A stretch of DNA of 64,000 bases from Branchiostoma floridae (Eukaryota > Chordata > Leptocardii > Amphioxiformes > Branchiostomatidae). Both the position numbers and the translations under genes were made by a program. Shown here piece after piece: positions 59,997-60,374 of the stretch. Under the pieces are notes generated by a model. The model made no database searches. It saw nothing but the letters and a program-made list of their open reading frames with translations, and was not told the origin of the DNA. Location of the stretch: the NCBI RefSeq assembly GCF_000003815.2, contig NC_049980.1, positions 24,113,808 through 24,177,807 of the forward strand, in the 5' to 3' direction. Each line of letters begins with the position of its first letter. The first letter of the stretch is position 1.

Positions 59997-60004
59997 GTCC
60001 CACA

Positions 60005-60127
60005 ATGGTGTCAGATGTGCAGCTGGCCATCTTTGCCAACATGCTGGGCGTCACCCTGTTCCTCCTGGTAGTGCTCTATCATTACATCTCCATCAACAAC
60101 CCCAAGGCGAAAGCCAAAGATGACTGA
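60005..60127 (+). CDS. OST4: OST4, oligosaccharyltransferase complex subunit 4 (copy A)
   Basis: A complete 40-residue protein. Residues 2-13 include V-Q-L-A-I-F-A-N-M, followed by a single transmembrane helix (about residues 9-28, ending L-V-V-L-Y-H-Y) and a short polar tail with N-N-P-K. This is the whole architecture of OST4, the mini-protein that lies in the ER membrane and stabilises the catalytic STT3 subunit of the N-glycosylating oligosaccharyltransferase. The chosen ATG lies 8 nt inside an exon whose acceptor ends at 59996, and the length is normal for the family. The tail (I-S-I-N-N-P then Ala/Lys/Asp) departs more from the vertebrate form than copy B does. Its stop is 87 nt before the copy B ATG, with no AATAAA between. 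Confidence 0.93.
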
Positions 60128-60214
60128 AGAATGCATCATAAAGGAGATTCCCTGTACATAACTGTGAGAAGGCAAGCCCCAAAATCTTCTTGTTGATCTT
60201 TGCTTTCAGTCAGC

Positions 60215-60334
60215 ATGATCTCAGACGTTCAGCTTGCTATCTTTGCCAACATGATGGGGGTGTCCCTCTTCCTGCTGGTGGTTTTATACCACTATGTAGC
60301 AGTCAACAACCCAAAGACCAAGAGGGAGGAATGA
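60215..60334 (+). CDS. OST4: OST4, oligosaccharyltransferase complex subunit 4 (copy B)
   Basis: A second complete OST4 of 39 residues. It is nearly identical to copy A through the membrane helix and ends Y-V-A-V-N-N-P-K plus a charged tail, closer to the vertebrate pattern. It has its own strong 3' splice site (TTTGCTTTCAG ending 60209), five nt before the ATG. The space from copy A's stop is too small for an independent promoter or a normal intron. The likely routes to expression are therefore alternative splicing of the shared 5' exon or a bicistronic mRNA. A strong donor 40 nt after the stop (AAAG|GTAAGT at 60375) suggests a 3' UTR intron; at that distance it should not trigger nonsense-mediated decay. 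Confidence 0.95.
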
Positions 60335-60374
60335 TGATAAGTCCTTGCTGTAGAGTGTTTTTGTAATTGCAAAG

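Follow-up and report, generated by a model that had tools for sequence, protein, structure and literature searches.

Two intact open reading frames (ORFs) for OST4, a very small accessory protein of the enzyme by which sugars are attached to proteins, lie in the same orientation and 87 nt apart in the Branchiostoma floridae genome (Table 1). We analysed them within a 64,000-nt stretch of the forward strand (contig NC_049980.1, positions 24,113,808 to 24,177,807), hereafter the window. A first-pass annotation of this DNA had reported a pair of complete OST4 ORFs with this spacing, 40 and 39 residues long, and matches in both Pfam and the PDB confirmed it. Against the Pfam Ost4 profile (PF10215), copy A scored 57.9 bits and copy B 60.7 bits, both above the cut-off of 25 bits, and positions 1-33 of the 34 in the profile were matched by each protein. 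The best PDB match of both copies was human OST4 (2lat), with E values of 3e-16 for copy A and 1.6e-17 for copy B.

The two proteins differ at residues 2, 14, 17 and 28-30 and in the tail, and they are identical over residues 18-24. The tails read I-S-I in copy A and V-A-V in copy B, as first annotated; human OST4 (2lat) also has V-A-V. Of 34 residues compared with the human protein, 2 are changed in copy B and 6 in copy A, and we therefore regard B as the canonical version and A as the derived one. All six of copy A's changes within positions 1-34 are conservative.

Table 1. Features of the OST4 locus and related loci (coordinates refer to the window unless a contig is named; a slash marks the exon-intron boundary).
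Feature	Coordinates	Strand	Description
Window			on contig C2 (35.1 Mb) of the 513-Mb genome
Probable 5'UTR exon 1	59000-59090	+	nominal start; ends at donor AAG/GTAATA, 59091; alternative donor 59110
Exon A	59997-60163	+	167 nt; acceptor CTCCACAG, candidate weak donor ACT/GTGAGA at 60164
OST4 copy A CDS	60005-60127	+	40 aa, derived version; Pfam Ost4, PDB match
CATAAA	60137-60142	+	possible weak poly(A) signal, A-only transcript
Spacer, hypothetical ultra-short intron	60164-60209	+	46 nt between exons A and B
Exon B	60210-60374	+	165 nt; acceptor TGCTTTCAG, donor AAG/GTAAGT at 60375
OST4 copy B CDS	60215-60334	+	39 aa, canonical version; Pfam Ost4, PDB match
Probable 3'UTR intron	60375-60453	+	79 nt, GTAAGT ... 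TTTTTTTCCAG; sequence-based inference
Probable 3'UTR exon	60454-60600	+	AATAAA at 60563
STT3A-like locus	C17 16771681-16775726
STT3B-like locus	C16 12490815-12500679

A search of the 513-Mb genome, with scoring restricted to the best candidates (20 of 20 scored), returned two Ost4 matches, copies A and B, and no third. The presence of two copies within one locus sets this genome apart from the known OST4/Ost4p family, as does the I-S-I of copy A. A Pfam scan of 9 of the 72 stop-to-stop frames in the window (at least 85 aa) gave no match, while both OST4 CDSs matched, and no Rfam family reached its gathering threshold in the window. Elsewhere in the window, at positions 18720-19689, a peptide unit (VETPAARCGDTCSQVWRHLQ-like) recurs in open frames that overlap on the two strands, and the DNA there looks like a minisatellite. 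Downstream of the window, retrotransposon-like open frames occupy positions 7725-9871 of stretch L008, the second of which (8399-9871) has a reverse transcriptase match (RVT_1, 98.8 bits). Exons resembling CSE1L, an importin-alpha re-exporter, lie on the + strand of stretch L010 (2709-3038 and 6020-6319), 26.7 to 30.3 kb downstream from OST4.

Each copy is preceded by an acceptor-like site of its own, as had been claimed. On a manually entered position weight matrix, which underlies all splice-site scores given here, the acceptor of exon A (ending at 59996) scores 9.84 bits, a value reached by 0.7% of the AGs in the window, and that of exon B (ending at 60209) scores 8.01 bits (1.9%). The first-pass annotation fared less well on the upstream side, where it had described a single donor: the site at 59110 (6.96 bits) nearly equals that at 59091 (7.45 bits). 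No ATG was found in 58900-59090. Downstream, exon B ends at a near-perfect donor (60375, 12.5 bits), a score reached by 0.06% of the GTs in the window. The annotated feature had ended at 60374, which is where exon B stops at this donor; the 79-nt intron-like stretch beyond it had been left undescribed. The acceptor at its end (60453) reaches 5.01 bits and is outscored by another AG close by, at 60461 (7.57 bits).

For exon A, the candidate donor at 60164 scores 4.91 bits, a value reached by 8.7% of all GTs in the window, and it is the best among the four GTs between A's stop codon and B's acceptor. Provided that this donor is in use, the two exons are of similar length, and the distance from stop codon to donor is 36 nt in A and 40 nt in B. 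The local alignment of the two regions extends upstream of the ORFs through the 3' splice-site tract (TTGACCTTCACCTCCACAG in A and TTGATCTTTGCTTTCAG in B). When the flanks outside the ORFs were tested alone they showed no similarity beyond chance, as 349, 402 and 266 of 500 shuffles reached their scores; the homology of the A and B donors is therefore a matter of position alone. The spacer contains a sole match to the yTnAy motif, TTGAT, with its A at 60196 and 32 nt from donor 60164. There was no sign of a structured RNA selector in the spacer (folding z-scores of -0.67 and -0.16).

The promoter-like island placed upstream of the two copies received modest support. Several CpG-rich 200-nt bins lie near 59000 (CpG o/e of 0.69-1.06 in the bins starting at 58500, 58600, 58900 and 59000), but the ratio is lower in 58800-58999 (0.21) and in the bins starting at 59100-59400 (0.41-0.63). 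Exon 1 itself has a CpG o/e of 0.69-0.74, versus 0-0.2 over the coding exons. In 200-nt bins the ratio stays at 0-0.2 throughout 59800-60599 and does not rise between the copies.

The first-pass statement that no AATAAA separates the copies was correct, and ATTAAA is absent there as well, but the interval does hold the CATAAA listed in Table 1, which we take to be a variant poly(A) hexamer. The AATAAA that follows copy B lies within a short repeat (60558-60605) that is also found on contigs C18, C8, C7 and C143. A DNA search of the genome with the whole region returned the region itself and four short matches, all to this 3'-end repeat. The copy in the window is one base short compared with the best match on each of the four contigs: the alignment reads CAATA-AAAAG in the window and CAATACAAAAG or CAATAGAAAAG on the other contigs. 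It is the one missing base that creates the AATAAA hexamer, and a mobile repeat may be the source of the poly(A) signal after copy B. A more distant copy of the repeat in the window (11568-11534) aligns ungapped and does not show the extra base.

The exon pair is an old duplication in which the protein has been preserved. Across 37 codons (111 aligned coding bases) the copies differ at 31 bases, 21 of them third positions, and of 13 fourfold sites 10 are changed. For codons 1-34 the NG86 method gave a dN of 0.10 and a dS of 2.5, and the maximum-likelihood option of Biopython a dN of 0.08 and a dS of 8.3; these values are limited by the saturation of dS and the shortness of the ORFs. With synonymous divergence saturated and both proteins still OST4-like, the duplicate is neither recent nor haplotype-derived. 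The dN/dS comparison of the two ORFs that the first-pass annotation had proposed thus yields about 0.04 (NG86), which contradicts a decaying duplicate. In neutral simulations with 31 random changes, at most 8 amino-acid changes without a stop codon were obtained in 0 of 20,000 runs from each start. When the A branch was considered separately, on the premise that roughly half (about 12) of the 25 differences seen in codons 1-34 arose on it, the probability of at most 5 amino-acid changes under neutrality was 0.0166; with 10 substitutions it was 0.08 and with 8 it was 0.31.

These data bear on several explanations that would make the pair less than two working exons of one gene. An assembly artefact, with two haplotypes of one exon placed in tandem, has to be considered because the B. 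floridae reference had two divergent haplotypes needing merger, which was done with HaploMerger2 according to PMC7269912. However, the 31 differences and a dS above 2, the flanks that resemble one another no more than expected by chance, and the whole-region search, which found no second copy of the locus, all argue against it. On the strength of the divergence and the unrelated flanks we discard a haplotype or assembly duplication, a reading that we find scarcely credible. It is quite improbable, too, that copy A is non-functional or decaying and that B alone is used. Copy A does carry more changes from human OST4 than B, its donor is weak, and 8-10 substitutions on its branch would leave neutrality at P values of 0.31-0.08. 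On the other hand, the six changes within positions 1-34 are conservative, the frame is open and the start context strong, and neutrality fits poorly with a protein that was preserved while synonymous divergence reached saturation. We rejected decay on the dN/dS ratio and the simulations, with an A-branch result that hinges on the number of substitutions; the case against the decay of copy A, drawn from sequence comparison, is thus good but not absolute. Decay of copy A and an assembly artefact can both largely be set aside. A different kind of alternative, two tandem genes with separate promoters, of which B's would lie inside A's exon or intron 1, seems to us improbable. Promoters can be small, but the ORFs are just 87 nt apart, CpG o/e does not climb between the copies and remains at 0-0.2 over the whole region, and an acceptor-like site has been kept immediately before B's ATG, which implies an upstream exon.

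The explanation that we hold, with slightly more confidence than doubt, is that one promoter serves two alternative whole-ORF OST4 exons and that the choice between them is in effect exclusive. An exon holding the entire OST4 coding sequence would have been duplicated in tandem in the distant past, and both copies would have been retained as functional exons behind a shared upstream promoter and a non-coding first exon. Splicing of each pre-mRNA would connect exon 1 with one of two acceptors, that of A (59997) or that of B (60210). For the canonical isoform B, the strong donor would make the connection to the 3'UTR exon. The conservatively diverged isoform A would be released by splicing at its weak donor (60164) or by termination or read-through ahead of B; an early 3' end at the CATAAA would be a third possibility for A. 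What the sequence itself displays are two intact, ancient and constrained ORFs behind acceptor-like sites, the intron-like structure downstream of them, and the lack of a second CpG-rich segment between the copies. We infer that the promoter is shared, that splicing chooses between the exons, that the steric block described below operates and that A protein is made. Of what was first put forward, mutually exclusive coding exons or a bicistronic mRNA, the best-supported part is a single transcription unit that offers a choice of two OST4 ORFs.

Steric hindrance would keep A and B from being joined as separate exons, since the branch point in the spacer would sit some 32 nt from the donor of A. 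The steric limit on the distance between donor and branch point in mutually exclusive exons is about 50 nt in PMC5740500 and PMC7969005, a vertebrate value that may differ in a lancelet genome. If donor 60164 is real, both the 46-nt spacer and the yTnAy motif at 32 nt fall below this limit, so A and B would not be readily joined. By the usual rule, a transcript is spared from NMD when its stop codon lies within 50-55 nt of the last junction. In the single-ORF forms this distance is 36-40 nt, and they would therefore be short enough to escape NMD. In the long form that contains both A and B, by comparison, the exon junction at 60374 comes 247 nt after A's stop codon. The long form also has five AUGs before that of B, including A's own, which favours splicing over scanning as the route to B. 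A more specific proposition, which combines mutually exclusive whole-ORF exons, a 46-nt unspliceable spacer, NMD of the double-inclusion form and possibly STT3A/STT3B or tissue tuning, is in our judgment a tentative possibility, and rather doubtful as a whole.

A serious rival to exon choice is a bicistronic OST4 mRNA. If acceptor A were joined to B's strong donor, the product would be one 378-nt bicistronic exon and not a mutually exclusive one: exon 1 would be spliced to acceptor A, exon A, the spacer and exon B would be retained as a single exon up to donor 60375, A would be translated first, and B would follow by reinitiation. The weak donor is then dispensable, A's acceptor outscores that of B, and B's donor is the strongest among the candidate donors scored at the locus. 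A short first ORF (41 codons) followed by an 87-nt gap is compatible with reinitiation and suits this model, and there are precedents in flies (Sloth1/Sloth2, pri/tal and Sarcolamban) and in green algae (OST4_FAM32A). B's own good acceptor would, however, be superfluous, and A's stop codon at its distance from the junction at 60374 would be a likely trigger of NMD by the rule given above. Leaky scanning is disfavoured, since A's AUG stands in a strong context, A(-3) and G(+4), and four further AUGs come before that of B; reinitiation would have to take place beyond those four. We regard the bicistronic form as on balance unlikely, although it carries real weight.

If alternative whole-ORF exons are indeed what the locus holds, two isoforms from one gene have been retained for a long time, and even a protein of about 40 residues such as OST4 can be diversified. 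The locus would then be a compact natural model of whole-ORF exon choice, steric splice exclusion and their interplay with NMD, and at about 1.6 kb it is small enough for complete minigene dissection. As to function, OST4 is one shared subunit in both human OST complexes, and in yeast Ost4 charged substitutions in the stretch 18-24 cause severe growth defects (both from PMC7226087); over this stretch A and B are identical. The genome's nine STT3 matches map to an STT3A-like locus on C17 and an STT3B-like locus on C16, each so called from one fragment per locus by its best match to human STT3A or STT3B. Adjoining matched stretches in these loci are separated by seven gaps of 421 to 3993 nt that may hide unmatched exons, and these gaps far exceed the 46-nt and 79-nt stretches at OST4. 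It is speculation that the OST4 isoforms are biased toward one STT3 complex.

Homologous exons split by an intron too short to be spliced form a known class; to our knowledge they encode segments, never whole proteins. OGDH exons 4a/4b are an example of a sterically enforced, mutually exclusive pair, and PMC5740500 describes 57 human clusters in which steric interference is possible. Such pairs share with the OST4 locus the tandem homologous exons, which at OST4 are of near-equal length, and a branch point, putative at OST4, less than about 50 nt from the upstream donor. They differ in that an internal segment is encoded, whereas each OST4 exon would hold a complete ORF with its own start and stop codons; the donor of OST4 exon A is weak, and exclusivity here is putative.

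A second point of comparison is provided by transcription units in which paralogous micro-proteins are encoded next to each other, as in the fly genes Sloth1/Sloth2, pri/tal and Sarcolamban. Mutually homologous ORFs occur in 44 of the 196 bicistronic genes annotated in flies, and a single transmembrane domain is predicted in both Sloth1 and Sloth2 (PMC9681215). The Sloth ORFs are separated by 5 nt, and the Kozak context of the first is non-optimal. At OST4 the gap between the ORFs is 87 nt, copy A starts in a strong context, and copy B comes with an acceptor of its own. In the green-algal OST4_FAM32A, OST4 is likewise ORF1 of a two-ORF transcript, but the second ORF is FAM32A and not an OST4 paralog, and an alternative acceptor is not described in the available part of PMC11892635. 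Translation of the second ORF is ascribed to leaky scanning in both the Sloth and the green-algal cases (PMC9681215 and PMC11892635). Among open-access papers we found none linking OST4 with amphioxus or Branchiostoma. Set beside these systems, the OST4 locus is unusual in detail and of known kinds.
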